A stretch of 64,000 nucleotides of DNA from an uncultured Veillonellaceae bacterium (lineage in GTDB: Bacteria > Bacillota > Negativicutes > Veillonellales > Dialisteraceae): contig CAKMIA010000001.1 of assembly GCA_927353735.1 (NCBI GenBank), positions 434,001 to 498,000 of the forward strand. Reading direction: 5' to 3'. Of this stretch, positions 47,210 to 64,000 are shown in pieces. Positions within the stretch are counted from its first letter, which is position 1, and each line of letters opens with the position of its first letter. The notes below the pieces were generated by a model. The model saw only the letters and a list, made by a program, of their open reading frames with translations, was not told the origin of the DNA and searched no databases. The translations under genes and the position numbers were made by a program.

Positions 47210-50200
47210 TCAGAAAGCTCTGTTCAGTCCGATATTGATCTGGTACGTATCCTCATTGTCATTCCCGAAGGAGTGTTCCACGTCGAGGAACATATAGCTG
47301 TCTTCGCCCATGCGGTGCGAGAAGCCGAAGCCCACGTCGTACCACGTGCCTTCATTGTCGTAGGTCGTATCAAGTGCCCCTGTGATATCCGACGCATGGA
47401 CTCTCTGATCGCCCAGGAATTCGTGAAGGATGTCCGCCTTGAAGTACACCGTATTGCCCTCGCTCGTGTCCCGGCCCAGTCGGAAACCGGCGCGCCCGAT
47501 CAGGCTGTCGATCCCGTCCAGCGAAACCTTCGTATTCTGGCTCGTCGTGTAATCCGCGCTCGTCACATAGGCATACTGCAGCTGCGCCTGCGGTTCGAAG
47601 TACCATTCGTTGCCGATGTCCTTCTTCCGCCCGTATTCCGCACTGGCGCTCCATACATCGTTGTCATAGTCTCCGCTGATCTTATCTGCCGTTGTCGGCG
47701 CAAAGATGTCGAAATCATTGGAGAGGTGTCCGTATTTCACCACATAATCGCTGTAGTGCCCCTTATCGCCGAGCCACGTATCGTAGAGCCATACGCCCGC
47801 TCTGCGCACGTCGCCGCTGCCCATGACATTCGTGTAATCCGCTTCGCCGCGCATGTAGTCGAAGGCCACGCCCCGGCGGTGTTCGCCGTCCTTCTGGTCC
47901 TGCACCTTCCGATCATAGCCCAGCTCGAACATGGTGTTCATGCTGCGGAAGGCGTCTTCTCTGCCGATGCGGTCATGACGGAGGCGCACCCACAGGCCGT
48001 CGTCGCCCTCGATATACCGGGCCTCGCCCATGCGCTTGTTCAGACGGTCCATGTATACTGCGTTGGAGTAATTCACTTTCGACATGGCCACTATGGCTTT
48101 GCCGGCGCTGGAGATTTCTTCATCGGCACGGCCGATCAGCTTATAGTTGATTGCGCCTGTGTTCTGGATATCCGCCTCTGCATCAGTTTCCGACAAAACC
48201 ATATAATTGGCAGACGATGTGGTATCGTCAGCCGAACCTACAGGAGTACCGTCACTTTCAAAGAAACCGTCCACCATGGCATCCCCCGGCTTTTCGGAGT
48301 TCCCGGAAGCAGTGCCGTCTTCCGCCGTACTGTTATACTCCTCATTTTCCTCATTATTATCATAGGAGTCTGTTCCGACTTCATATTCCACATTCAGTAC
48401 GCCCTGATCGATCGTAACGGCACGGAAAGTTACAGCAGAATCTTTCCCGACCGTAGCAAACCGCAGGCCGTTAAAGAGTTCCCCGTTATCTCTCCTGGCA
48501 TACATATCATCCAGCGTGACCGGATCGACCACATTGATGATGTAAGCGCCCTTGGCATTCTTCATGTACAGCATATCGCTCACATCGCGGTTTCCATCGA
48601 GGCTCATATTGAAGACCGCGTCGCCCTGCATTTCATAGATGGTCATGGCATGAGCATACTGATTTTGGTCCGTATTGGCAGAAACCAGATCGATCGTCGC
48701 CATATCTTTCATCGCTTTGATGGGATCTTCCGCGTTTAATACATTCTCAATGGTTTCTGCCTCTTCCGTATTGATGCTTGTAACCCAGCTCTGGCCCGTC
48801 ACATTCCACCGGGCCCCCTTGCCCATGGTGAGATTCACTGCGCCGCCTTTATAAATATCGCTGCTGAATGCAGGATGGCGGAAACTATTTTCAGTATAAC
48901 CATTCGTCGTAACCACGCCTGCATCGCCGTAATCATCTGCGCGGCCTTCCAGTACGCCTCCGTTGCCCAGATCCACAGTCAGGATGCCGCCATTACCGGC
49001 CAGCAGGTTGCCCTCAATATTGATTTTTGCATTCGCTGCTCCATCTTGCTTTTTGATATTTACCTGTCCTGCATAAGCAGAAACGATATCTCCCGTAATG
49101 GAGCTGGCCACGGTATTGCCCTCATTGTCTGCATAGGAATCATAATTCACGGTCACCACAGCATGATCAATGCCGTCAGGATTTGCTACCGCATTTTCGA
49201 CATTCTCTTTTGTAAGATTGACAGCCGTACCGGCAGCAATGGCGATATCCGCGCTGTTTGCACTCTTTTCATAACTGTCCGTGCTGATGGTGGTCGTCCC
49301 ATCCACCGTGATATCGGCCCCGTTATAGGCCCAGATCACACGTTCCAGCTGGTCTGAATCGTTTGAATCTGCCTTGGTCAGGAATGTATTGCTCTGACCG
49401 GATGATACCTTGATATCGGCGCCGTCCTCCGCATACAGCGCAGAAATGACACTCTTATTCTTAAATTGATCATCCGTAGAAGTATTCAAATCACCGGCAT
49501 CAGCGATAACAGATTCAGACGAAATATAGTTTGCATTTGCACTGCTCAGAGAATAGGTGCTTTTCTTAATATCGGTATCAGAAACTTTATTTGTACCGGA
49601 CGCAATGACCGCGCCAAGCTGATAGGCTCCCCAGGAATTTCCGTTATTGTCAGTTTTTTCACCTGTCGTTCCCAAATCGATTAACCCACCATTTTCGACA
49701 AGCATATCTCCTACAGCATACAAAGTATTGAGTTCCTTGCCGGTGATACTGTTTGCCTTATGCTCAGTTGTATCATCTACGCCTTCCGCATACATGGCAT
49801 AACTGTTGTCTCCCTGCATGGAAATGGAAACATCCTTTCCTTCGCCCAGCATCACCGAAGTGCCATGTGTATTTGCAGAATGATCTAAATTGGGTATTTC
49901 AATCAAGCTACCAACCTTAAATGTATTACCGTAAACCAGATTTGAATCCTTCGCTGCGATTCCGTAGGAATTATCTGCAACAGAAATGATATTCAAATCT
50001 CCATTAACCTTGATAGTACCATTCTTCCCTGCATACAGCCCGTATCCTCCTTGATTGTTTTGGCCTTTCAGTATCGTAAGAGTGGTATCATTAAGGCTAA
50101 TTATTCCCTGCCCAATCGACTGATTGCCAAAACTTGTAAAAAAATCAAAATAATACATATCATCGCCGGCATATACCGCTGCCGGTGCATATTTACCACT

Positions 50201-50854
50201 TACAGTTATGGAGTTTAACTGTGCTGATTTCTCTATCATCTCTCCATTGATGGTGATATTGGTCGCTCCCTCTACATTAATAACAGACTCATATCCTGTA
50301 AATGTTTTGTCGGAAACATATTTATCCGAAACTGCACTGGCACGAATCCCGTTGCCGTTATCTACTATAAGGCCATCCGCCTGACCGATGCTTCCAACAT
50401 TTAATATATTGGATCCGCCTGCTTCGTTACCAATACTGATGCCGTCAGACTTAGCCGCATAAATTGCCCCGGAAAAATCACCGATGGTAACCTTAGTATT
50501 ATTTCCCGTAATATGCAATCCATCCGCATTTTCATTCTCCCCATTTTTATCAACAGTGATTTTAAAATTCGTATCCTTCAAATTAACTACAGAATCTTTT
50601 CCATTAATCACGGCTGCAAAGTCTCTTTGTGATTGATTTGCTGTGTGATTTATTTGTATTGTTGTAAATTGGGCAAGCGGTGTGCCCGGCACCGGAGATG
50701 CACCTGTTAAGTTAAGAGTTTCATTCTTACCAGATGATGACACAAGAGTATTCCCGTCTTCGATTACCTCCCATGCCCATGCCTGCCCGGCCGGCACCAT
50801 GGCGGCCATGGCGAGCGCCATGAGAATATGCTTTGTCAGAATTTTCTTTTTCAT
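47210..50854 (-). CDS. Autotransporter (type Va) surface protein
   Basis: Outer-membrane/surface protein of 1,214 residues. A signal peptide (about 1-27, ALAMAAMVPAGQAWA) precedes a long passenger rich in Asn, Gly, Ser and Thr with recurring short beta strands, as in pertactin-like beta helices. A C-terminal autotransporter barrel (about 945-1214) ends in GLNRAF with the terminal Phe needed for BAM recognition. The passenger gene part is more AT-rich than its neighbours. No catalytic triad is evident, so adhesion is more likely than proteolysis. It lies 42 bases after a zinc-finger gene and may share its transcript. Confidence 0.9.
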   Translation of the reverse strand: MKKKILTKHILMALAMAAMVPAGQAWAWEVIEDGNTLVSSSGKNETLNLTGASPVPGTPLAQFTTIQINHTANQSQRDFAAVINGKDSVVNLKDTNFKITVDKNGENENADGLHITGNNTKVTIGDFSGAIYAAKSDGISIGNEAGGSNILNVGSIGQADGLIVDNGNGIRASAVSDKYVSDKTFTGYESVINVEGATNITINGEMIEKSAQLNSITVSGKYAPAAVYAGDDMYYFDFFTSFGNQSIGQGIISLNDTTLTILKGQNNQGGYGLYAGKNGTIKVNGDLNIISVADNSYGIAAKDSNLVYGNTFKVGSLIEIPNLDHSANTHGTSVMLGEGKDVSISMQGDNSYAMYAEGVDDTTEHKANSITGKELNTLYAVGDMLVENGGLIDLGTTGEKTDNNGNSWGAYQLGAVIASGTNKVSDTDIKKSTYSLSSANANYISSESVIADAGDLNTSTDDQFKNKSVISALYAEDGADIKVSSGQSNTFLTKADSNDSDQLERVIWAYNGADITVDGTTTISTDSYEKSANSADIAIAAGTAVNLTKENVENAVANPDGIDHAVVTVNYDSYADNEGNTVASSITGDIVSAYAGQVNIKKQDGAANAKINIEGNLLAGNGGILTVDLGNGGVLEGRADDYGDAGVVTTNGYTENSFRHPAFSSDIYKGGAVNLTMGKGARWNVTGQSWVTSINTEEAETIENVLNAEDPIKAMKDMATIDLVSANTDQNQYAHAMTIYEMQGDAVFNMSLDGNRDVSDMLYMKNAKGAYIINVVDPVTLDDMYARRDNGELFNGLRFATVGKDSAVTFRAVTIDQGVLNVEYEVGTDSYDNNEENEEYNSTAEDGTASGNSEKPGDAMVDGFFESDGTPVGSADDTTSSANYMVLSETDAEADIQNTGAINYKLIGRADEEISSAGKAIVAMSKVNYSNAVYMDRLNKRMGEARYIEGDDGLWVRLRHDRIGREDAFRSMNTMFELGYDRKVQDQKDGEHRRGVAFDYMRGEADYTNVMGSGDVRRAGVWLYDTWLGDKGHYSDYVVKYGHLSNDFDIFAPTTADKISGDYDNDVWSASAEYGRKKDIGNEWYFEPQAQLQYAYVTSADYTTSQNTKVSLDGIDSLIGRAGFRLGRDTSEGNTVYFKADILHEFLGDQRVHASDITGALDTTYDNEGTWYDVGFGFSHRMGEDSYMFLDVEHSFGNDNEDTYQINIGLNRAF

Positions 50855-52982: not shown

Positions 52983-53534
52983 TCAGAAGGAAAAGCCCGC
53001 TGCCCGGAGCAGTGCCTCCGCCTCTTCCAGACTGCGGATGAAATGCAGGCCCCGGCGGTCCTCGTCCGAAAGGAAGCCGTTATCCTCCATGGCATGGAAA
53101 TAGCTGTCGAGCCGGTCATAGCAGTGCGCCGCGTTGTACACGAGGACGGGCTTGTGGTGCCGGCCGAGGCGGTACAGGGAGTAGGTCTCGGCGATTTCCT
53201 CGAGGGTCCCCGGCCCGCCGGGCAGCGCGAGGAAGGCGTCTCCCATGGCGATCATCTTTTCTTTCCGCTCAGCCATGGTCTCCACGGTGATCATGGCCGT
53301 GAGGCCGGTGTGGGCTTCTTCCCGCGTCTTCAGGAAGGACGGGATGACGCCCACCGCTTCGCCGCCGGCGGCGAGGAGCGCATCGGCGCAGGCTCCCATG
53401 AGGCCGGTGCGGCCGCCGCCGTAGATCATGCGGATGTGACGGCGCGCCAGCCAGCGGCCAGTCTCTTCCGCGGCCCGGCGGAACGCGGGATCGCGGCCGG
53501 GATTGGCCCCGCAGTACACGGTGAGCTGTTTCAT
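52983..53534 (-). CDS. LOG-family protein (cytokinin riboside monophosphate phosphoribohydrolase-like)
   Basis: 183-residue Rossmann-fold protein of the TIGR00730 family. The signatures IYGGGRTGLMGACADALL and ALPGGPGTLEEIAE are intact, the latter being the PGGxGTxxE nucleotide/catalytic motif. LOG proteins hydrolyse nucleotide N-glycosidic bonds such as AMP or N6-modified AMP. Its start overlaps the GNAT gene stop (ATGA). Confidence 0.88.
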   Translation of the reverse strand: MKQLTVYCGANPGRDPAFRRAAEETGRWLARRHIRMIYGGGRTGLMGACADALLAAGGEAVGVIPSFLKTREEAHTGLTAMITVETMAERKEKMIAMGDAFLALPGGPGTLEEIAETYSLYRLGRHHKPVLVYNAAHCYDRLDSYFHAMEDNGFLSDEDRRGLHFIRSLEEAEALLRAAGFSF

Positions 53535-53992
53535 ACAGTGCTCCTTTCTGTTTCCATGACGAGATTCTCCAGCCTGACGCCGCGGCGCACTACGGTCTGC
53601 CGCCGCACGATACGCCAGCCCCGGGCGAGGAAGAATGGCCGCGCCGTGAGGGAGGCTTCCGTGCGGAGACGCCGCGCCCCCGCCGCACGGACGAGCGCCG
53701 CGAGGAGCGCCGTCCCGATGCCTTCGCCCTGCCGGGCCGCGTGGACGAAGAGGCGGTCCACGTACCCGTCCGGCCGGACGTCTCCGAAGCCGAGGAGCGC
53801 GCCTTCCTCTTCCGCGGCGAAGGCCGGATGTCCCGCAAAGGACGCGGTCCACGCGGCTTCGTCCTCCGCGCCCGCGGCCCACGCGCGGCAGGCGCTCTCG
53901 CTGTAGTCTTTCCGGTTCACAGCGAGGACGGTCTCCCGGAAGAGCCGCGCCGCGGCGGGGCCGTCTTCGGGACGGAATGGCCGGATGTGCAT
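53531..53992 (-). CDS. GNAT-family N-acetyltransferase
   Basis: 153-residue acyl-CoA-dependent transferase: starts MHIRPFRPEDGPAAARLF, has the acyl-CoA loop RLFVHAARQGEGIGTALLAAL (about 86-106, motif A Q/RxxGxG/A) and the late beta strands TARPFFLARGWRIV. Substrate unknown. It forms a two-gene operon with the LOG-family gene. It resembles the YafP/ElaA-like small GNATs. Confidence 0.85.
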   Translation of the reverse strand: MHIRPFRPEDGPAAARLFRETVLAVNRKDYSESACRAWAAGAEDEAAWTASFAGHPAFAAEEEGALLGFGDVRPDGYVDRLFVHAARQGEGIGTALLAALVRAAGARRLRTEASLTARPFFLARGWRIVRRQTVVRRGVRLENLVMETERSTV

Positions 53993-54865: not shown

Positions 54866-56038
54866 TCATTCGATGACGTCTCTGTCTCTGACCTTCAGCA
54901 GAATGCCTGCCATCTGCTTGGTGCGGCGGAAGAGGCTTTCCACATCGGCCCATTCTTCCACGGTGTGATTTCTTGCGCCCTCCACACCGACAGCGCAGAG
55001 GGTGGGCACGCCCGCTGCCGTGGTATAGGCTGCATCGCTGCCGCCGCCGCAGAGCCGCGCTTCCGGTTTCCGGAAGCCGCTTTCTTCGGCCACTTCCTGC
55101 GCGATAGAGAGAAGAGTCATATTGCCTGCCAGACGGGGCATGACCGCAAAACCCACATTGTCCGAGACCTTCGTGGTCGTGTCCGGCACATAGGTCTTTG
55201 CACAGACGTCCGCCACCTTCTGGCGGAGCACCGGCAGATCTTCCGGATGGGTATAGCGGAAATCGCATTCCACCTTGCAGTAGGCCGGCGCCGCATTGGC
55301 CACGGTGCCGCCCTCAATGGTGCCGACATTGACGTTGTATTCCTTCGAGAAGTCCGTCAGTTTTTCGATCTCGATGATCTTGTGAGCCATTTCAAGGATG
55401 GCGCTCCGGCCGTTTTCCGGATCGTTGCCCACATGACAGCCGCGGCCGTACACTTCCACGAAGAAGCGCCAGCAGCCCTTGCGCTGTACCACGAGACTGT
55501 TGTCCGTAAAGCCGGTCTCGAAATTGAAGGCGCATTTGGCACCGACGGCTTCCTTCCGGATCACCTCCGGCGCATCGGAGAAGCAGTGGGCCGGTTCTTC
55601 ATCGGCATCCAGAATGACCTTCACCGGGAAATCGGACACACCGGCCGCTTCCAGTGCCTGCAGCGTGGACAGAAGAATGGTGACGCCGCCTTTCATATCG
55701 AGCACGCCCGGACCGTAAGCCTTGCCAGCCTTGATGGTGAACGGACGGCGTTCCGGCTCTCCCTTGAAAAATACGGTATCCATATGTCCCATGAGGATCA
55801 CGAAGGGCTTTGTCATATCGCCCCGTTCGGCAATGATGGTATCCCCGCATTTTTCATAGGACACACGGCGGATGGAGAATCCCAGCTTTTCCAGAATCCC
55901 TGCACAGAGATTTCCCATGGCCATGCCGCCTTCTTTGACGCCGATGCCGGAGTCGATGGTCACCATGTCCTTCCAGAGACTGACCATGTCATCCCGATGT
56001 GCATCGACCCACTGATACGCTTTTTCTCTTTCGTCCAT
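54866..56038 (-). CDS. M20-family carboxypeptidase/acylase-like hydrolase (copy 1)
   Basis: Di-zinc hydrolase of 390 residues related to glutamate carboxypeptidase (CPG2) and N-acyl-amino-acid deacylases. Metal-site motifs: LMGHMDTVF (about 88-96), GPGVLDMKGG, the Glu pair in LDADEEPAH and GGGSDAAY near the end; it has the lid/dimerisation domain (about 190-300). The ATG at 56038 is chosen by homology to copy 2 and lies 20 bases after it. Last gene of MFS-racemase-M20-M20. Candidate role: hydrolysing an N-acyl or peptide bond after racemisation. Confidence 0.87.
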   Translation of the reverse strand: MDEREKAYQWVDAHRDDMVSLWKDMVTIDSGIGVKEGGMAMGNLCAGILEKLGFSIRRVSYEKCGDTIIAERGDMTKPFVILMGHMDTVFFKGEPERRPFTIKAGKAYGPGVLDMKGGVTILLSTLQALEAAGVSDFPVKVILDADEEPAHCFSDAPEVIRKEAVGAKCAFNFETGFTDNSLVVQRKGCWRFFVEVYGRGCHVGNDPENGRSAILEMAHKIIEIEKLTDFSKEYNVNVGTIEGGTVANAAPAYCKVECDFRYTHPEDLPVLRQKVADVCAKTYVPDTTTKVSDNVGFAVMPRLAGNMTLLSIAQEVAEESGFRKPEARLCGGGSDAAYTTAAGVPTLCAVGVEGARNHTVEEWADVESLFRRTKQMAGILLKVRDRDVIE

Positions 56039-56058
56039 AGTATATGTATGCCTCCTTA

Positions 56059-57210
56059 TTACAGCTTCATGAGCAGAGCCGCCGAGAGCTTTGTCCGTTC
56101 GGTGAGAGAGCTTTCTTTCGCCCATTCTCTCACGGTGTGATTGAACTGGCCTTTGACGCCCATGGCACACAGTGCCGGCACTCCCTCTGCGGTAATGTAA
56201 GCGGAATCACTGCCGCCGCCGACGGCGATGGCTTTCATTTCCGGAAGTCCTGCCTCCCTGGCGATCTGATTGGCTTTGTCAAAGAGCTCCTCCGAGGAAG
56301 CCAGCCGCTCCATGGCGCCCATTTTGACTTCACAGCGGCACGTGGTCTGTACCTGATCGATATAGACCTTGTCCGTGATCTCCTTCAGCGCTTTTTCCAC
56401 CCGTTCGATGCCGGCCATGGTGCGGAACCGCACATCCACGCGGCACCACGCATTTTCCGGAATGGCATTGGGCACGGTCCCGCCGGCGATGACGCCTACA
56501 TTGACGGTCGTTCCCTCGGCCATATCGGTGAGGGCTTCCATATCGAGCGCCTTATGACAGAGCTCCTTCACAGCGCTGCGGCCGTCTTCCGGATTGTTTC
56601 CCGCATGGGCGCCCACACCGTGGAAATCGAAGCGATACTGCGCACAGCCCTTCCGTTCCAGCACGATGCCGTTATCGATGAAGCCGGTCTCGTAATTGAA
56701 GGCCATGAGTGCGCCCCGGGCTTCCTTCCGGTAATCCTGTGCGGCATCAGACCAGCCGTGGCCTACTTCTTCATCCCCGGCGAGAATGATCTTCAGAGGA
56801 TATCTGTTCCAGCCGCTTTCCAGCAGGGTCTTCACCGCATAAAGCATGACCGTGATGCCGCCCTTCATATCGAGGACACCCGGGCCAGTCACCCGTCCGT
56901 CCTGCACGGTGAAGGGACGTTCCGCTGCCGTGCCGTCTGCAAAGACGGTGTCCATGTGTCCGGTGAGGATCACAAAGGGCTTCGTCATATCCCCATATTC
57001 AGCGACAAGCATATTGCCTGCCTTTTCATATTCATGGAACCGGACCATAAATCCGAGCGGTTCGAGGAAGCGCCGGATATCCTGTCCCACGCTGTCCACG
57101 CCGGCTTTATTTCCGGAGCCGCAGTCCCGGTTGACCAGCGACTTCCAGGTATCCATCATGGCCGGCTTTGCCTGGTCGATGCTCTGAAATATTTCTTCCA
57201 GTGTCCTCAT
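56059..57210 (-). CDS. M20-family carboxypeptidase/acylase-like hydrolase (copy 2)
   Basis: 383-residue paralogue of the preceding gene with the same motifs: LTGHMDTVFADG, GPGVLDMKGGI, LAGDEEVGHGWSDAA and GGGSDSAYI. Conserved FNYETGFIDN versus FNFETGFTDN shows recent common ancestry. Its ATG overlaps the racemase stop (ATGA). Two copies may handle different acyl groups, different stereoisomers or form a heteromer; none of this is determined by sequence. Confidence 0.87.
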   Translation of the reverse strand: MRTLEEIFQSIDQAKPAMMDTWKSLVNRDCGSGNKAGVDSVGQDIRRFLEPLGFMVRFHEYEKAGNMLVAEYGDMTKPFVILTGHMDTVFADGTAAERPFTVQDGRVTGPGVLDMKGGITVMLYAVKTLLESGWNRYPLKIILAGDEEVGHGWSDAAQDYRKEARGALMAFNYETGFIDNGIVLERKGCAQYRFDFHGVGAHAGNNPEDGRSAVKELCHKALDMEALTDMAEGTTVNVGVIAGGTVPNAIPENAWCRVDVRFRTMAGIERVEKALKEITDKVYIDQVQTTCRCEVKMGAMERLASSEELFDKANQIAREAGLPEMKAIAVGGGSDSAYITAEGVPALCAMGVKGQFNHTVREWAKESSLTERTKLSAALLMKL

Positions 57211-58319
57211 TTGTTATACTCCCATTTTTCCAGCGTGTGTTCATCCACTACCTTCTGATTCAGCTCGAAGCCCGTTCCCGGAAGTTCCGGCAGGCGAACC
57301 ATGGCATGGCTGTCGATATAGGTGGACGGCGTGACGATGTCCACGCCGTAATAGCGGTCGCTGCTCGGAATATCATTGGGATAGCGGTAATAGGGCAGCG
57401 TCGCCACAGCCAGATTGTGGCCGCGGGCCACGCCGTCGTCCACCATGCCGCCGCACCAGCAGTATACGCCGTGCTCGCCGGCATATTTCTGAATGCGCCG
57501 TGCTTCCGTGAGGCCGCCTACGCGGGCCACCTTGATATTGATGATCTTGCAGCTGCCCAGTTCAATGGCTCTGCGTGCGTCATCCAGAGAAATGATGCTT
57601 TCATCAAGACAGATCGGCGTCTTGATGACCTCCTGAAGATGACGGTGATCCACGATGTCATCCGATTCCAGCGGCTGTTCGATCATGAGCAAGTTCAGGT
57701 CATCCATTTCGCGGAACAGATTGATGTCGTCCAGCGTGTAGGCAGAATTGGCATCGGCCATGAGCATGATGTCCCCGAATTCCCTGCGGACAGCGCTGAG
57801 ATAATTGATGTCGTGACCCGGCTTGATCTTGCATTTGATCCGGCGGTAGCCCTGCTTCATGTATTCTTCTATCGTGTGGAGCAGTTTGTCCGGCGTTTCC
57901 TCAATGCCGAGGGAGACTCCTGCCTCGATTTCATTCTTTACGCCGCCGAGAGCCTTATATTCCGGCACACCCAGTTCCTTGGAATACAGTTCCCACAGAG
58001 CGCAATCCACTGCGGCGCGGGCCATGCGGTTCCGGCGGATCCACGCGGTCTCGTCAAAGAAATGCTCCGGCGTGCTGATATCTCCCATATCGAACAGAGC
58101 GGGGATGAGGTAATTCTGGATCACATACAGGGCGCCGATGGTGGTTTCTTCGTTATACCACGGACGCAGGAATGCGGAGCACGCACCGCGGCCCACATTG
58201 CCTTCCTCATCGTACAGTTCAATGATGGAAAAATCCTTCTGGATGAGGCCGAAGCTCGTGCGGAACGGCTTTTTGAAATCCAGATGCATACGGCGTAAAA
58301 CAACTTTATTGATTTTCAT
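57207..58319 (-). CDS. Enolase-superfamily racemase, NSAR/OSBS family (copy 1)
   Basis: 370-residue member of the muconate-lactonising subgroup. The acid/base and metal residues are all present: KxK in RIKCKIKPG (about 161-169), metal ligands in MADANSAY, MIEQPLE and CLDESI, and the second lysine in INIKVARVGG. Relatives racemise N-succinyl- or N-acylamino acids or make o-succinylbenzoate. No menaquinone genes are near, so OSBS is unlikely. A segment near the C-terminus (GGMVDDGVARGHNLAVATLP) departs from the usual GGMxExGIGRAxN. In operon with two M20 hydrolases and an MFS transporter. Confidence 0.85.
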   Translation of the reverse strand: MKINKVVLRRMHLDFKKPFRTSFGLIQKDFSIIELYDEEGNVGRGACSAFLRPWYNEETTIGALYVIQNYLIPALFDMGDISTPEHFFDETAWIRRNRMARAAVDCALWELYSKELGVPEYKALGGVKNEIEAGVSLGIEETPDKLLHTIEEYMKQGYRRIKCKIKPGHDINYLSAVRREFGDIMLMADANSAYTLDDINLFREMDDLNLLMIEQPLESDDIVDHRHLQEVIKTPICLDESIISLDDARRAIELGSCKIINIKVARVGGLTEARRIQKYAGEHGVYCWCGGMVDDGVARGHNLAVATLPYYRYPNDIPSSDRYYGVDIVTPSTYIDSHAMVRLPELPGTGFELNQKVVDEHTLEKWEYNK

Positions 58320-58345
58320 GCTGCAACCTCCTTACTTGTGCAGTA

Positions 58346-58386
58346 AGAGCCGGTCCCGTATCCCTCAGGGATGCCAGACCGGCTCT
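58346..58386 (-). repeat. Long inverted repeat between MFS and racemase genes
   Basis: AGAGCCGGTC ... GACCGGCTCT (10+10) enclosing a second small palindrome TCCC-TCA-GGGA. There is no T-run on the minus strand, so it is more likely an mRNA processing or stabilising hairpin than a terminator. Confidence 0.55.
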
Positions 58387-58392
58387 CATCAT

Positions 58393-59613
58393 TTATGCAT
58401 TGGTCTGATCTCCCGGCTTTCTGCGGATCGTCATGGCAAATACCGCACAGAGAGCCCCCATCGTGATGAGATAGTAGAAAACGGCGCTGAAAGAACCATT
58501 GAAAGCATAGACCAGATAGCCTATGAAGGCCGGCGACAGGAAACCTGCCACCTGTCCGCCCATATTGACCAGAGCGGACGCCGAACCGGAAATAGCGCCC
58601 GTAACGACCTTCAGCGTCAGGCCCACAGTAAGCGCCATGATGGTGGATTTGAAGAAATACACGCCGCACTGGAAAATAACGACGGTGGCGATGGTCTCTG
58701 CGTGATACATCAGGAAGAGGAAGAATGCCGTACCGGCGCCGGACAGCGCGATGAGATATTTTTCTCTGTGATCAAAGAATTTATCCATGATCCATCCGCA
58801 GGAGGCGCTGGATACAAAGGACGCGATGAACGGGATCGGCGTGAGATAGCCGACGGCCTTGAGGTCGATGCCGCGTTCCGCGATCAGATACGTCGGGATC
58901 CAGGCGTCCAGCCCCTTATTGATGCAGGATACACAGAAAGCGCAGAGGATCAGCTTCCACACCAGCGGCATTTTCAGCAGCTGAATGAAATATTTGGACT
59001 GATTTTTCTTGTCCTCCGTCTTTTCCTCTGCCGGTTTTTTCGATTTGACCAGAATGACATAAAGGAATACATAAAGCAGGCCAATGAGCCCGAGGATCTG
59101 GAACATGCCGCGCCATCCGAACCAGAGAATGAGCGGTACGACCACGACCGGTGCCAGCGCGCTGCCGATATAGTTCGAGGAAAGAACGAAACCGGTATAT
59201 TTCGCACGCACTTCACGGGGGAAGTATTCCGCCACAGCGCGGAAGCAGGAACCGGCATACGGTCCTTCACAGAGACCGAAGACGAACCGGAGAAACAGCA
59301 AGCCGGACAGGGTCTGCGCATGGCCGGTGGTGAAGGTAAAGATGGACCAGAGCGCCAGTGCCACGCAGATGACGGTTTTTGACCCGAATTTATCTGCAAA
59401 CCACCCGCCCGGTATCTGCATAATGGAGTAGCCGATAAAGAATACACTGATGATGACCCCCATTTCCGTCGGAGCCAGATTGAAGTCCTTCGACACGGAC
59501 GGCAGCGCCAGCCCGATCGCCGAACGGTCTATATAGGAGATACAGAATCCTATATAGAGGAAGAAGAAAACCATGTATCGGTTTTCCGTTTGGAATTTTT
59601 TCAGCCAGCTCAA
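58393..59613 (-). CDS. MFS transporter, anion:cation symporter-like
   Basis: 406-residue secondary transporter with 12 hydrophobic segments, GGWFADKFGSKTV (loop 2-3 MFS motif) and RFVFGLCEGPYAGS resembling hexuronate/phthalate-type ACS transporters. The start is the TTG at 59613, 8 bases after GGGAGG; no ATG gives the typical N-terminus SWLKKFQTENRYMVF. First gene of the catabolic operon, divergent from the regulator; it probably imports the substrate acted on by the racemase and hydrolases. Confidence 0.85.
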   Translation of the reverse strand: MSWLKKFQTENRYMVFFFLYIGFCISYIDRSAIGLALPSVSKDFNLAPTEMGVIISVFFIGYSIMQIPGGWFADKFGSKTVICVALALWSIFTFTTGHAQTLSGLLFLRFVFGLCEGPYAGSCFRAVAEYFPREVRAKYTGFVLSSNYIGSALAPVVVVPLILWFGWRGMFQILGLIGLLYVFLYVILVKSKKPAEEKTEDKKNQSKYFIQLLKMPLVWKLILCAFCVSCINKGLDAWIPTYLIAERGIDLKAVGYLTPIPFIASFVSSASCGWIMDKFFDHREKYLIALSGAGTAFFLFLMYHAETIATVVIFQCGVYFFKSTIMALTVGLTLKVVTGAISGSASALVNMGGQVAGFLSPAFIGYLVYAFNGSFSAVFYYLITMGALCAVFAMTIRRKPGDQTNA

Positions 59614-59687
59614 AGTTAAGACCTCCCATCTGCACAGAAAGCCACAGGAGCACATGTATCTGCGCTCTGCGGCTCCCTTGCCGGCAG

Positions 59688-59703
59688 GCTTCCGCCTGCG
59701 TGT
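59688..59703. repeat. Inverted repeat in the regulator/MFS intergenic region
   Basis: GCAGGC-TTCC-GCCTGC next to the divergent promoters. It could be an operator or a hairpin in the MFS leader. Confidence 0.4.
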
Positions 59704-59731
59704 TTACTAAAATTGTACTTGCGTATATGAT
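59703..59731 (+). promoter_or_regulatory. Promoter of the regulator gene
   Basis: TTTACT (59703-59708), 17 bases, TATGAT (59726-59731). The opposing MFS promoter must overlap this region, but I cannot define it. Confidence 0.6.
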
Positions 59732-59787
59732 AAGGGAAACACAATGTCCTGAATAGACCTTTATTCTGTCTGAAATTAGGTGGTCTC

Positions 59788-61113
59788 ATGAAAATCGGCC
59801 TTGTCGCTCCGGAAAAGCTCATGCAGGAAATTTTTTCTTTCGTCGGCAGAGAATTTCCTGACGAAGAATTCATCCCCTTCTCCTATCGCTCCATACTGGA
59901 TCTGCCTTCGCTTCTTTCCGGACAGCAGAACCGGGCGGATGCCTTCCTGTTTCTCGGGGAAACGGCACGGCGCTTTGCCGCAAAATCCATCGTGCCGGCC
60001 GTTCCATGGGTGGCCATTCCCCGTTCCTCCTCGGCGCTCCTCCGCCTCCTGTTCCGCGCAGCGGTGGCCGGCCGGGCCATGCACATCGCCACCGACTGGC
60101 CGAGAGAAGATCTCTTCCAGCTCGCCTTCCATGAGATCGGAATCCCGCCGGAGCAGTACCGGCTTCATTTCTGTCCGGTCCACGCCTACAATGAAGAGAT
60201 CCTGTCTCTGGAAGCCGACCGCATGGCGGAACTCTGCCGTACCGGAGAAGCAGATTTCTGCATCACCATATTTTACCGGATCGAAAAGATTCTCTCCGAC
60301 CGCCAGATCCCGGTGTACGTGCTCCAGCCGTCTTTCGAAGATATCCGTGCGGGCATCGAGCGTCTCATCCTCTCCGACCAGCTTCGCCGGAGCCACGACA
60401 CCCCGCTTGCCTGCGCCGCTATGCGTCTCTCCATCCCGGAGGACCAGTATCCGGCCGAGCATGGCTATGATCTGGCAGAAGCCCGCCTGTCCGCTGCACA
60501 CCTCATCTGGCAGTTTGCCAGAGAGACTGAAGCGGCCTGCATCGAGCGGCCTCCATGGGGCTGGCTTCTCTTTTCCACCCGGTCCCTTATGGAAAATGCC
60601 ACCGCCCATTATCATCACCTTCCGCTGCTGGCCCGGATGCGCAGTACCGGTCCCTTCACCCTGTCCATCGGCTTCGGCATCGGCTCCTCTGCAGAGGAAT
60701 CCAAGCTCCACGCCGAACGGGCACTGGACCGGGCCGTTCTTCGCGGCGGCGATCAGGCTTATCTTATGGGACCCGGACTTTCCCTTCCTGTCCCGCCGGC
60801 ACAGGGCGACCGGCTGACGCAGCAGGTCCCGATGCTCTCCATTCAGGAACAATTCCTGCCCCTCGCCCAGTTGTCCGGCGTCAGCGTACGCATTCTCACG
60901 CTGCTGTACCGCGCCTGCCGGGATACGGACCGCACCTGCTTCACCTCGGCCGAGCTTGCCGATTTTGCCGGCGTCACGCCCCGAACCATGAACCGCATTC
61001 TGCAGAAGCTCATGGACCGGGATCTGGCGCGGGAAGTGGGACTGCAGTTCACCGCCCGCACCGGCCGGCCGAGCCGCCTCATCGAGCTCCGCTTTCAGCC
61101 CCAGAATCTGTGA
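59788..61113 (+). CDS. Multidomain transcriptional regulator with C-terminal winged helix
   Basis: 441-residue protein without a family I can name. The C-terminus (about 360-441) is a winged helix-turn-helix: SAELADFAGVTPRTMNRILQ, then RTGRPSR. The middle (about 265-330) has FTLSIGFGIGSSAEESKLHAERALDRA, resembling a degenerate nucleotide-cyclase/GGDEF or archaeal GTP-cyclohydrolase III-like fold without the GGDEF residues. The N-terminus (about 1-200) looks like an alpha/beta ligand-binding domain. Divergent from the MFS-racemase-M20 operon, so it is its likely regulator. Confidence 0.65.
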   Translation: MKIGLVAPEKLMQEIFSFVGREFPDEEFIPFSYRSILDLPSLLSGQQNRADAFLFLGETARRFAAKSIVPAVPWVAIPRSSSALLRLLFRAAVAGRAMHIATDWPREDLFQLAFHEIGIPPEQYRLHFCPVHAYNEEILSLEADRMAELCRTGEADFCITIFYRIEKILSDRQIPVYVLQPSFEDIRAGIERLILSDQLRRSHDTPLACAAMRLSIPEDQYPAEHGYDLAEARLSAAHLIWQFARETEAACIERPPWGWLLFSTRSLMENATAHYHHLPLLARMRSTGPFTLSIGFGIGSSAEESKLHAERALDRAVLRGGDQAYLMGPGLSLPVPPAQGDRLTQQVPMLSIQEQFLPLAQLSGVSVRILTLLYRACRDTDRTCFTSAELADFAGVTPRTMNRILQKLMDRDLAREVGLQFTARTGRPSRLIELRFQPQNL

Positions 61114-61152
61114 AATTGCCCGAAATACTTTTCATAAGAAAGGACACCCCGT

Positions 61153-61767
61153 ATGTTTAAAGATAGACTTTTTTACCTGCGGAAGCAGAAGAAACTCTCC
61201 CAGGATGAGCTGGGGCAGCTCATTGGTGTCTCCCAGCAGGCAGTAGCAAAATGGGAAGGCGGCAGTGCCTTTCCCAATCAACAATCCATGGAGCAATTAT
61301 GTGATTTTTTCGGTGTAACCATGGATTTTTTGTTTGATAACTCGCCCAGCAGAGGTACAAAACTTCCTGTTCTAAACACCATCATACCAGGCGTTCCTAT
61401 GGAAAACCTGCTCGATATAGACGGCTATGAAGAAATTTCTGAATCCATGGCTGAAAGCGGAACCTATTTCGCAGTTAAAATCAACGATCATGCCATAGCC
61501 CCACGCATTCTGCCCGGTGATATCGCTATTGTGCAGTCACAGGAATCCTATACAGACGGAGATTTCTGTCTTGTACAGATTGGTGGAAATCCTCCCTCCA
61601 TAAGACAGCTCTATCAAAAAACGGGCGGCCTCATTCTCATCGCTCTGAATTCTGTGTGTTTTCCGCCTCAATTCCTCACGACAGAGGATATTCACAGTCT
61701 CCCGCTGCGCATCCTCGGCATTGTGCGGGAATTGCGCATCAGGCAGCTGACAGGCTCCGATATCTGA
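61153..61767 (+). CDS. XRE-family regulator with degenerate S24/LexA-like domain
   Basis: 204 residues: an N-terminal Cro/CI helix-turn-helix (LSQDELGQLIGVSQQAVAKW, about 15-34) and a C-terminal LexA/S24-like fold. The catalytic serine motif GDSM is replaced by INDHAIAPRILPGD, and the position of the catalytic lysine reads LIALNS, so self-cleavage is not expected. The gene is more AT-rich than its neighbours and starts 39 bases after the preceding regulator, probably co-transcribed. It may use the dead protease fold for dimerisation or ligand sensing. Confidence 0.8.
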   Translation: MFKDRLFYLRKQKKLSQDELGQLIGVSQQAVAKWEGGSAFPNQQSMEQLCDFFGVTMDFLFDNSPSRGTKLPVLNTIIPGVPMENLLDIDGYEEISESMAESGTYFAVKINDHAIAPRILPGDIAIVQSQESYTDGDFCLVQIGGNPPSIRQLYQKTGGLILIALNSVCFPPQFLTTEDIHSLPLRILGIVRELRIRQLTGSDI

Positions 61768-61800
61768 GCATCATTGTATCCGAGCTTATCTCCTCCCATA

Positions 61801-61837
61801 AAAAAAGACCATATCCATAAAGGATACGGTCTTTTTT
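61801..61837. terminator. Bidirectional terminator between the regulator and racemase 2
   Basis: AAAAAAGACCATATCC-ATAAA-GGATACGGTCTTTTTT. Confidence 0.85.
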
Positions 61838-61838
61838 C

Positions 61839-62951
61839 TTACCGGTAGATCCAGTGTCCGGCGGTCATGCGGTCTACGGCTGCTTCGTCCACGCGGTATT
61901 CGATGCCATTATCTTCATCAGGCACCACGATCGTGCAGCGGTCCGTGATGTCCACCATCGGATCGGTGATGTCCTTTTCAAAATACCGGCTTGCCGCCGC
62001 CACATCATGGGCCAGTTCCGTGAAGCCCGGCAGGCTGGCAAAGGACACATTCTGCGCCCGGCCGATGCCGAGCTCCGTCATCCCGCCGCACCATACGGGA
62101 ATCCCGTGAGCCAGGCACAGATCATGGATGCGTTTCCCTTCGTAGATCCCGCCGCAGCGGCTCGATTTGATATTGATGACCCGGCAGCTGCCCAGACGGA
62201 TGGCCGCTTCCGCCGCCTCATAGGAGACGATGCTTTCATCGAGGCAGATCGGCGTTTCAATGGCTTTCTGCAAAATGGCATGGTCTGCGATGTCTTCTTC
62301 ACCAAGCGGCTGTTCGATGTACTGGAGATGGTATTCATCCATGGCGCGGAACAGTTCGATGTCCTCCAACGTATAGGCGGAATTGGCATCTACCGTGAGC
62401 GTGATGTCACCGAATTCCTTCCGGATGGCCTTCACCACCTCGATATCCTTTCCGGGATGGATCTTGATCTTGGTGCGGTGGTAGCCCAGCTCCAGATAAT
62501 GTTCGATCTCATGGAGAAGCACGTTGATATCCTTTTCGATGCCCAGAGAAACGCCCACGCGGATCTCCTTCTGCGTGCCCCCGAGAAGCGTTTTAAGCGA
62601 TTTCCCGGTGCGCTTCACCATCAGATCCCACAGGGCATTTTCCACGGCCGCCTTGGCCAGACGGTTTCCGCGGATATAGGAAAAGCTCTTCATGAAGGCT
62701 TCCGGGCTCTCCACATCCTGATGCAGGATGCGGGGAATGATGATGTCTCCCAGCACATGGAGCACAGTCCCGTTGTCCTCCGGATTATAGAACGGGCCGT
62801 AAAAGGCTTTGCATTCGCCCCAGCCGATGAGTCCCTCGGAATAGATCTTCACCAGAAGGGCATCCCGGTTTTCAAAACGGGTAAAGCTTGTCTGAAAAGG
62901 ATGCCGGAACGGATTCAGCACCCGGATGATGTCTATGCGGTCAATTCTCAT
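61839..62951 (-). CDS. Enolase-superfamily racemase, NSAR/OSBS family (copy 2)
   Basis: 370-residue paralogue of the racemase at 57.2 kb, same length and layout: KxK in RTKIKIHPG, metal ligands VDANSAY, YIEQPLGEED and CLDESI, general lysine INIKSSRCGG. Unlike copy 1 it keeps the canonical GGMTELGIGRAQN loop, so substrate preference probably differs. It has its own promoter and lies 62 bases downstream of the YjiG/YjiH-like pair. Confidence 0.85.
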   Translation of the reverse strand: MRIDRIDIIRVLNPFRHPFQTSFTRFENRDALLVKIYSEGLIGWGECKAFYGPFYNPEDNGTVLHVLGDIIIPRILHQDVESPEAFMKSFSYIRGNRLAKAAVENALWDLMVKRTGKSLKTLLGGTQKEIRVGVSLGIEKDINVLLHEIEHYLELGYHRTKIKIHPGKDIEVVKAIRKEFGDITLTVDANSAYTLEDIELFRAMDEYHLQYIEQPLGEEDIADHAILQKAIETPICLDESIVSYEAAEAAIRLGSCRVINIKSSRCGGIYEGKRIHDLCLAHGIPVWCGGMTELGIGRAQNVSFASLPGFTELAHDVAAASRYFEKDITDPMVDITDRCTIVVPDEDNGIEYRVDEAAVDRMTAGHWIYR

Positions 62952-62980
62952 AACGCACCTCCATTGTGTAATACGCTCCC

Positions 62981-62989
62981 ATTATAGCA
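62981..62989 (-). promoter_or_regulatory. Extended -10 promoter of racemase 2
   Basis: Minus strand TGCTATAATG, TATAAT at 62981-62986; -35 weak. Confidence 0.5.
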
Positions 62990-63013
62990 AAAAGTCTATG
63001 GAAAGGGAGTTTT

Positions 63014-63676
63014 TTATTCTGCGGTGGATTTTTTGCGGCGGGCCGCCAGATAGAGGCGGACGAGGTTGGCACCGATGAATTTCACCACGACGATGAGCGC
63101 GATGATGATGCCCACCGGCAGGACGGTGATCGGCAGGAGCGCCGCGCCGGAGCCGATGGTGTTGTTGATGGTGGCGGAGCCGGCGTACTGGTAGGCCGCA
63201 AAGATGGTGCGGTGATCGTCGGTGATGAGCTTTTCGTCGGCCATGTTTTTCGTCATGAAGGCTGCCACGTCGGAGGAGGTGAAGCTGGATACGAAGGCCA
63301 GCCCCACCGTGCCGGGCACGCCGAGGAGCACCCGAAAGAAAGGCTGGAAAAGCTTCCCTGCGGCGGTGATGGCCCCCAGATGCTGGCAGACCTCAATGAG
63401 TCCCTGCGCCATCATGGTGGTGGGGACCATGGTCAGCGCCAGAATGAAGGCCTCCCGCGCGCCGGAGCCGCCGGTCCCCTGTATGCTCACCTTCGCACCT
63501 TCTGCATGGCCGAACTGGCCGAGGAGAGCTGTGAAGTCAAAGGCGCGGAGGAAATTGTCCTGATGGGCAAAAACGCCGGAAAAGCAGAGAATGAGAAAAA
63601 TCAGGGAAGCCCAGCCTTTCCAGGTCACTTTCTGTCCGCGAAGCGTTGTGGATGTCTGTTTCTGATCCATTTGCAT
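63014..63676 (-). CDS. YjiG/SpmB-like membrane protein (nucleoside-recognition/GATE domain)
   Basis: 220-residue inner-membrane protein with about five hydrophobic segments and the gate-type motifs GTGGSGAREAFILALTMVPTT (about 67-87, given by position) and VSSFTSSDVAAFMTKN. The fold is shared with spore-maturation protein SpmB and E. coli YjiG. In E. coli, yjiG-yjiH sit beside the isoaspartyl dipeptidase iadA; here the pair sits beside racemases and M20 hydrolases, supporting a role in moving amino acids or small peptides. Confidence 0.8.
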   Translation of the reverse strand: MQMDQKQTSTTLRGQKVTWKGWASLIFLILCFSGVFAHQDNFLRAFDFTALLGQFGHAEGAKVSIQGTGGSGAREAFILALTMVPTTMMAQGLIEVCQHLGAITAAGKLFQPFFRVLLGVPGTVGLAFVSSFTSSDVAAFMTKNMADEKLITDDHRTIFAAYQYAGSATINNTIGSGAALLPITVLPVGIIIALIVVVKFIGANLVRLYLAARRKKSTAE

Positions 63677-63684
63677 TCACCTCC

Positions 63685-64000
63685 TCAGCGGTACAGCGCG
63701 AGCACGAGCCGCGTCAGCACCATAACGATCGCCGCATCGATGAGCGGCGTGGCCAGCATGATCGGATAATAGACGGGCCGCACCTTACACACCAGCACGA
63801 TGCGGGCAAAGTGCCCCACCAGCGTGCCCATGGTGATGCACGCCGGGAAGAGGATCGTCGCCTCCTCCGCAGTGAGCACGCCTGCCGCATAGAGAGACGC
63901 CGCCGTGGCTGCGCCCGCCGCCTTGGCAAAAAAAGCGGCCAGCAGCACCACCGAGGCCTCGCCGGGCAGGCCGAAGAGGCCCATCACCGGTCCGAGCAGC
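63685..64000 (-). CDS. YjiH-like membrane protein, truncated by the window edge
   Basis: C-terminal part of about 105 residues; the frame stays open to the right edge, so the true start is outside. Hydrophobic, with MGLFGLPGEASVVLLAAFFAK and FPACITMGTLVGHFARIVLV, typical of YjiH nucleoside-recognition proteins. It ends 8 bases before the YjiG-like gene and forms a pair with it. Confidence 0.75.
   Translation of the reverse strand, partial: LLGPVMGLFGLPGEASVVLLAAFFAKAAGAATAASLYAAGVLTAEEATILFPACITMGTLVGHFARIVLVCKVRPVYYPIMLATPLIDAAIVMVLTRLVLALYR

Follow-up and report, generated by a model that had tools for sequence, protein, structure and literature searches.

A locus that carries two racemases of one subfamily beside two M20 hydrolases raises the question of what compounds it handles and why it keeps both racemases. 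We analysed a window of 64,000 nucleotides (positions 434001–498000 of contig C1, CAKMIA010000001.1) from the 1.77-Mb genome of an uncultured gut-type Veillonellaceae bacterium. One end of it holds two members of the N-succinylamino acid racemase/o-succinylbenzoate synthase (NSAR/OSBS) subfamily, RacA and RacB, two M20 hydrolases, an MFS carrier, homologues of Escherichia coli YjiH and YjiG (YjiHG) and a divergent regulator, Reg1. A first-pass annotation of these genes, all of which are real open reading frames (ORFs) with strong family matches, had proposed import, stereochemical equalising and hydrolysis of N-acylated or peptide-linked amino acids. Intact catalytic residues and the co-occurrence of the genes in Negativicutes and some Clostridia uphold this general scheme. 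The locus is probably a salvage (catabolic) gene set that takes up N-acyl amino acids, racemises them and hydrolyses them.

Two racemase lineages at one locus

RacA (P0003; 57207–58319, minus strand) and RacB (P0007; 61839–62951, minus strand) are 44% identical, and nothing else in the genome matches the enolase C-terminal family. Both passed the cut-off of the NSAR/OSBS model TIGR01928 (200.65 bits), with 320 bits for RacA and 345 bits for RacB, and their best or near-best solved matches were N-acylamino acid racemases and Listeria Lin2664. The first-pass annotation had called for a phylogeny of both racemases against characterised enzymes. In a tree of 79 sequences, RacA belonged to a clade of 25 and RacB to a compact clade of 22, both with SH-aLRT 100; the RacB clade sat on a long stem, and its inner branches were short. 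None of the five solved reference enzymes was inside either clade. This was a quick tree with some long branches, in which deeper placement is unsure. The two racemases represent distinct, conserved lineages.

The catalytic and metal-binding residues (K-x-K, D, E, D, K) were complete in both lineages, and K161, K163, D189, E214, D239, K263, R266, S135 and R299, in the numbering of the Amycolatopsis enzyme, were invariant in the 25 RacA and 22 RacB sequences. Clade-specific differences lay near positions 291 and 323, at which wild type 1sja and variant 4a6g differ in the printed alignments. At residue 293, 21 of the 22 RacB sequences had Thr and RacA had Leu or Val; residue 294 was Glu in RacB but Asp in RacA; and the 311–318 loop was also unlike between the two. 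R266 was considered as a discriminator of NSAR from OSBS and dropped, since a men-linked relative (L116) has it too.

A strong racemase match was found in 29 of 250 Negativicutes genomes; sorted by the tree, 21 of the genomes had RacB, 18 had RacA and 16 had both, over eight families (Fisher test of co-occurrence, p 4e-19, uncorrected for relatedness). Both racemases were present in 5 of the 12 genomes of the window's own family. The closest named relatives of the locus were metagenome-assembled genomes of Veillonellales/Veillonellaceae, with RacA 87–90% identical. Where both racemases were present they always shared one locus: racA and racB lay 4 to 4341 bp apart in the 13 Negativicutes loci measured by script, the other three of the 16 being the window and its two congeners. 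The genes that recurred beside them were a carboxypeptidase G2-like M20 hydrolase, Reg1 and at least one carrier among MFS, a DUF5058 protein with its partner, YjiHG and a YfcC/DcuC-like protein, so that the neighbourhood conservation across Negativicutes that the first-pass annotation had asked about extends to hydrolase, carrier and regulator. The clustering is not due to chance: sister species and sister genera show it, and so do other families.

The smallest clear version of the set was found in the cultured Geosporobacter ferrireducens (L026), where Reg1 is divergent from yfcC-racB-racA-M20 and the racemase genes are 44 bp apart. Because this locus combines two racemases with a single hydrolase, the second hydrolase appears to be optional. 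RacA occurred without RacB in Clostridium, at L031 (the cultured species Clostridium magnum), L032 and L033, and RacB without RacA at L098, L100 and L105, with M20 or Reg1 genes. Since each racemase also occurs without the other, parallel specificities are favoured over sequential roles. RacA relatives 70–75% identical were also observed at L017 and L020, in a Pyramidobacter metagenome-assembled genome (Synergistota) and in Sutterella seckii (Pseudomonadota). Their nesting among Negativicutes in the tree suggests transfer of RacA between phyla, with misbinning possible for Pyramidobacter.

Reg1 and a 26-bp box

Along its full length, Reg1 (59788–61113, plus strand) matched no Pfam or NCBIfam family, and its C-terminal part gave a weak helix-turn-helix match (HTH_Crp_2). 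Its predicted structure had a pLDDT of 83 and a pTM of 0.48, at which the domain arrangement is uncertain. A fold search with this structure matched residues 1–202 to the PrpR sensor domain fold (2pju and 2q5c, Z 15–17) and residues about 181–340 to GGDEF/cyclase folds. A Pfam search found no sigma-54 activator AAA+ domain in Reg1; the middle domain is GGDEF/cyclase-like instead. Reg1 is thus predicted to consist of a PrpR-type sensor, a GGDEF-like domain and a helix-turn-helix. Homologues of Reg1 occurred at rac loci of other genomes.

Comparison of intergenic regions revealed a 26-bp box upstream of reg1 (59745–59770, plus strand), TGTCCTGAATAGACCTTTATTCTGTC, which roughly forms an 11-bp direct repeat; an inverted-repeat search alone upstream of reg1 gave nothing useful. 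Three congeneric genomes shared the box without change, and two other genera had slightly altered forms; its position was kept across genera and families. In those two genera, second copies lay before RacB (G011) and before the second MFS gene (G003). In G003 we also observed that the reg1 homologue is apparently split into two ORFs (L066:3571–4971) and that two tandem MFS genes are each preceded by a Reg1 box. A matrix built from 10 sites also picked out sites outside its building set, which lay at rac operons in Clostridium and in other families and scored 22–28, against maxima of 9–12 in shuffled windows. A strict pattern gave 18 exact matches in 16 genomes, of which 17 were in rac or Reg1 loci. 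When only matches neither used in nor identical to the building set were counted, 5 of 6 were in such loci, and these held-out matches included a previously unnoticed second Reg1-MFS pair in G150. Matches with one mismatch were about as frequent as those of a reversed control pattern and were excluded from the results. Collectively, these results tie the box to Reg1 and make it a candidate operator.

The first-pass annotation had described a divergent regulator pair, of which Reg1 proved to be the conserved member. The other, an XRE-family regulator with an S24 peptidase domain (Pfam; 61153–61767, plus strand), is inserted between reg1 and racB in this genome only. Nothing in the corresponding loci of sister genomes matched it, and only weak relatives lay elsewhere in genomes of the family. 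The gene is lineage-specific and was dropped as a core regulator.

Hydrolases, carriers and gene order

The two M20 hydrolases, M20_1 (P0001; 54866–56038, minus strand; Pfam Peptidase_M20 and M20_dimer) and M20_2 (P0002; 56059–57210, minus strand; Pfam), are 46% identical. For M20_1 we prefer the ATG start at 56038; a longer GTG-started ORF runs into M20_2. Both proteins kept the metal ligands, the catalytic Asp and Glu and the carboxylate-binding Asn and Arg of carboxypeptidase G2. Carboxypeptidase G2 (1cg2) was also the nearest solved relative of M20_2; because the match was only about 131 bits, its substrate specificity is not transferable.

The MFS carrier (58393–59655, minus strand; MFS_1, E 2e-60) was closest to the D-galactonate transporter model TIGR00893, at 212 bits and below the cut-off of 395. 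The YjiH homologue (63014–63676, minus strand) and the YjiG homologue (63685–64000 in the window, minus strand) are adjacent Gate-domain membrane proteins with 39% and 38% identity to E. coli YjiH and YjiG, respectively, and by this resemblance may form a transporter. The YjiG gene continues for 167 bp beyond the end of the window (full extent 63685–64167) and is complete in the extended locus sequence L003 (286–768). DUF5058 was not mentioned in the literature searched. The DUF5058 protein and its partner were considered as distant YjiH relatives and rejected when profile comparisons gave nothing; they stand in for YjiHG by position only.

Neighbouring genes in MFS-RacA-M20_2-M20_1 overlap or are at most about 75 bp apart, making a single operon plausible. 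The operon structure described in the first-pass annotation applies to these four genes. It does not extend to YjiG-YjiH-RacB, a second minus-strand group that lies beyond the two plus-strand regulators; the view of a single locus stands. The gap between yjiH and racB (62951–63014) contains an extended -10-like element, TGCTATAAT, with a similar TATAAT in both congeners, and racB may have its own promoter there. Elsewhere in the window, a 1214-aa ORF (47210–50854, minus strand) resembles an autotransporter-type surface protein, as judged from its translation alone.

Substrate, rival explanations and known systems

We infer that the MFS carrier, perhaps together with YjiHG, would bring in N-acyl amino acids whose configuration is D or mixed. 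The two racemases, with differing substrate preferences, would then interconvert the enantiomers by moving a proton between the paired lysines while the metal holds the carboxylate. Relatives with NSAR activity use two lysine bases and a metal-bound substrate (PMC8142540), and many N-acyl amino acids are racemised by NSAR enzymes, which are employed in tandem with amidohydrolases (PMC7431475). One of the two enantiomers would be hydrolysed by the carboxypeptidase G2-like M20 proteins, which would draw the mixture towards the free amino acid and the acyl acid. Reg1 would sense a small molecule and, through the 26-bp box, control both reg1 and the MFS-RacA-M20-M20 operon that diverges from it.

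Genes at related loci bear on the stereochemistry of the substrate. Beside RacB, L105 encodes a D-serine ammonia-lyase above the model cut-off and an Amidohydro_3 enzyme, and L106 and L109 encode, again beside RacB, proteins 57–58% identical to the latter; these Amidohydro_3 enzymes are a candidate N-acyl-D-amino acid deacylase branch. A pyridoxal phosphate enzyme at L109 resembles 3-hydroxy-D-aspartate aldolase, below the model cut-off, and L031, L032 and L100 contain alanine-racemase or alanine-racemase-fold genes. The D-serine ammonia-lyase, Amidohydro_3 and alanine-racemase genes at related loci support a role in processing D- or N-acyl-D-amino acids but do not fix the substrate. At two loci (L102:3401–7476 and L104:11676–15715), a glycyl radical enzyme, its activase and a GntR regulator were observed between M20 genes, adjoining RacA-RacB. 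The enzyme is nearest to choline trimethylamine-lyase, well below the model cut-off, and its substrate could hint at the product of the pathway.

Several observations weigh against the salvage of N-acyl amino acids. No acyltransferase accounts for the origin of such compounds, which would therefore need to be imported. Pocket-near positions of both racemase lineages are unlike those of characterised enzymes, so a classical N-acyl amino acid may not be the substrate, and the residues examined do not tell NSAR from OSBS and so do not indicate it. In addition, the window has a single strong box site and none at RacB-YjiHG, which leaves control of YjiG-YjiH-RacB by Reg1 unsupported.

Were the substrates instead peptide-linked, as in isoaspartyl, gamma-glutamyl or other dipeptides, epimerisation by the racemases would take place at the C-terminal residue, and the two hydrolases would be dipeptidases. 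An NSAR-type pocket might accept a beta-aspartyl group, chemically an amino-substituted succinyl group, and dipeptidase-type M20 genes occur at some related loci. E. coli yjiH and yjiG, moreover, directly precede iadA, the gene for isoaspartyl dipeptidase; YjiHG, however, is found at the racemase locus in few genomes only. Dipeptide epimerases characteristically carry a D-x-D motif that follows the last barrel strand. The motif is visible in distant relatives (L140 and L137), but its first Asp is missing from all 47 RacA and RacB sequences, which have P-x-D (25 of 25 RacA) or A-x-D (22 of 22 RacB). This weakens the dipeptide branch of the first-pass annotation, and we regard peptide-linked substrates as unlikely. 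One or both racemases might alternatively catalyse another alpha-proton reaction (elimination, cycloisomerisation or epimerisation of a second centre in the same compound), with the enzymes acting in sequence or in a mixed complex. The clade-specific residues near the pocket and the joint retention of both lineages in 16 genomes, with at least one case of a single hydrolase (L026), fit this idea, whereas the loci with RacA or RacB alone speak against strict interdependence, and we think it improbable.

The known D-to-L pathway starts with succinylation of D-amino acids by a GNAT enzyme, continues with racemisation by NSAR and ends with removal of the succinate by a hydrolase; it would use the same racemase and M20 families. 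A GNAT gene is indeed present at 53531–53992 and in the two congeneric loci, but at none of the loci of other genera. Of the 62 proteins examined from conserved neighbourhoods, no two belonged to the same acetyltransferase family; carriers, rather than an acyltransferase, are strongly linked to the racemases there. The pathway as such, with its desuccinylase and succinyltransferase, which the first-pass annotation had cited as precedent, is thus very improbable here. The NCBIfam model that both racemases match, TIGR01928, is named menC, which would make them o-succinylbenzoate synthases for menaquinone. In profile searches of the 12 family genomes, MenD was not found and MenB gave only weak matches far below cut-off, while both models gave matches in control genomes; no men genes lay near the locus. 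The first-pass annotation had named, as outcomes that would refute it, racemases grouping with true OSBS plus a distant men cluster lacking menC, or no co-occurrence in related genomes; neither was observed, the genes co-occurring widely. A menaquinone role, refuted in its simple form, was rejected as having next to no likelihood.

Within the salvage of N-acyl amino acids, RacA and RacB could also be non-redundant and act jointly on one imported class of compounds, for example one with two racemisable carboxylate centres, with the freed acyl acid, such as succinate, being fermented by these Negativicutes. We consider this speculative and rather doubtful; if true, it would be a previously undescribed, dedicated and regulated energy pathway from N-acyl D/L-amino acids. 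To our knowledge, the use of N-acylated and D-amino acids by gut and rumen anaerobes is poorly mapped. The set has its own sensor, operator-like box, carriers, racemases and hydrolases, and the Reg1 ligand together with a locus phenotype would identify the compound. RacA and RacB, as lineages distinct from the solved references, also offer material on the divergence of NSAR and OSBS specificity and possible enzymes for the production of optically pure amino acids. The literature searched, which mostly did not include the specialist NSAR literature, held no description of a dual-racemase set with regulator and box, and we know of none. New here are the predicted domain make-up of Reg1 and the recurrence of the 26-bp box at Reg1 and rac loci.

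RacA and RacB share their subfamily and full catalytic set with the NSAR/N-acylamino acid racemases of Amycolatopsis (1sja), Deinococcus (1r0m) and Thermus (2zc8) and with Listeria Lin2664 (1wuf), but form their own clades, with changes at positions 293–294 and 311–318. A racemase beside an M20 hydrolase is common to this locus and the known Firmicutes pathway of NSAR, M20 desuccinylase and GNAT, whereas two racemases, dedicated carriers, a regulator and the lack of a conserved acyltransferase set the locus apart. Both M20 proteins have the catalytic residues of carboxypeptidase G2. The locus pairs YjiHG with RacB, whereas the E. coli operon pairs yjiH-yjiG with isoaspartyl dipeptidase. Reg1 residues 1–202 are predicted to have the sensor fold of PrpR, followed in Reg1 by the predicted GGDEF-like domain and helix-turn-helix in place of a sigma-54 activator domain.

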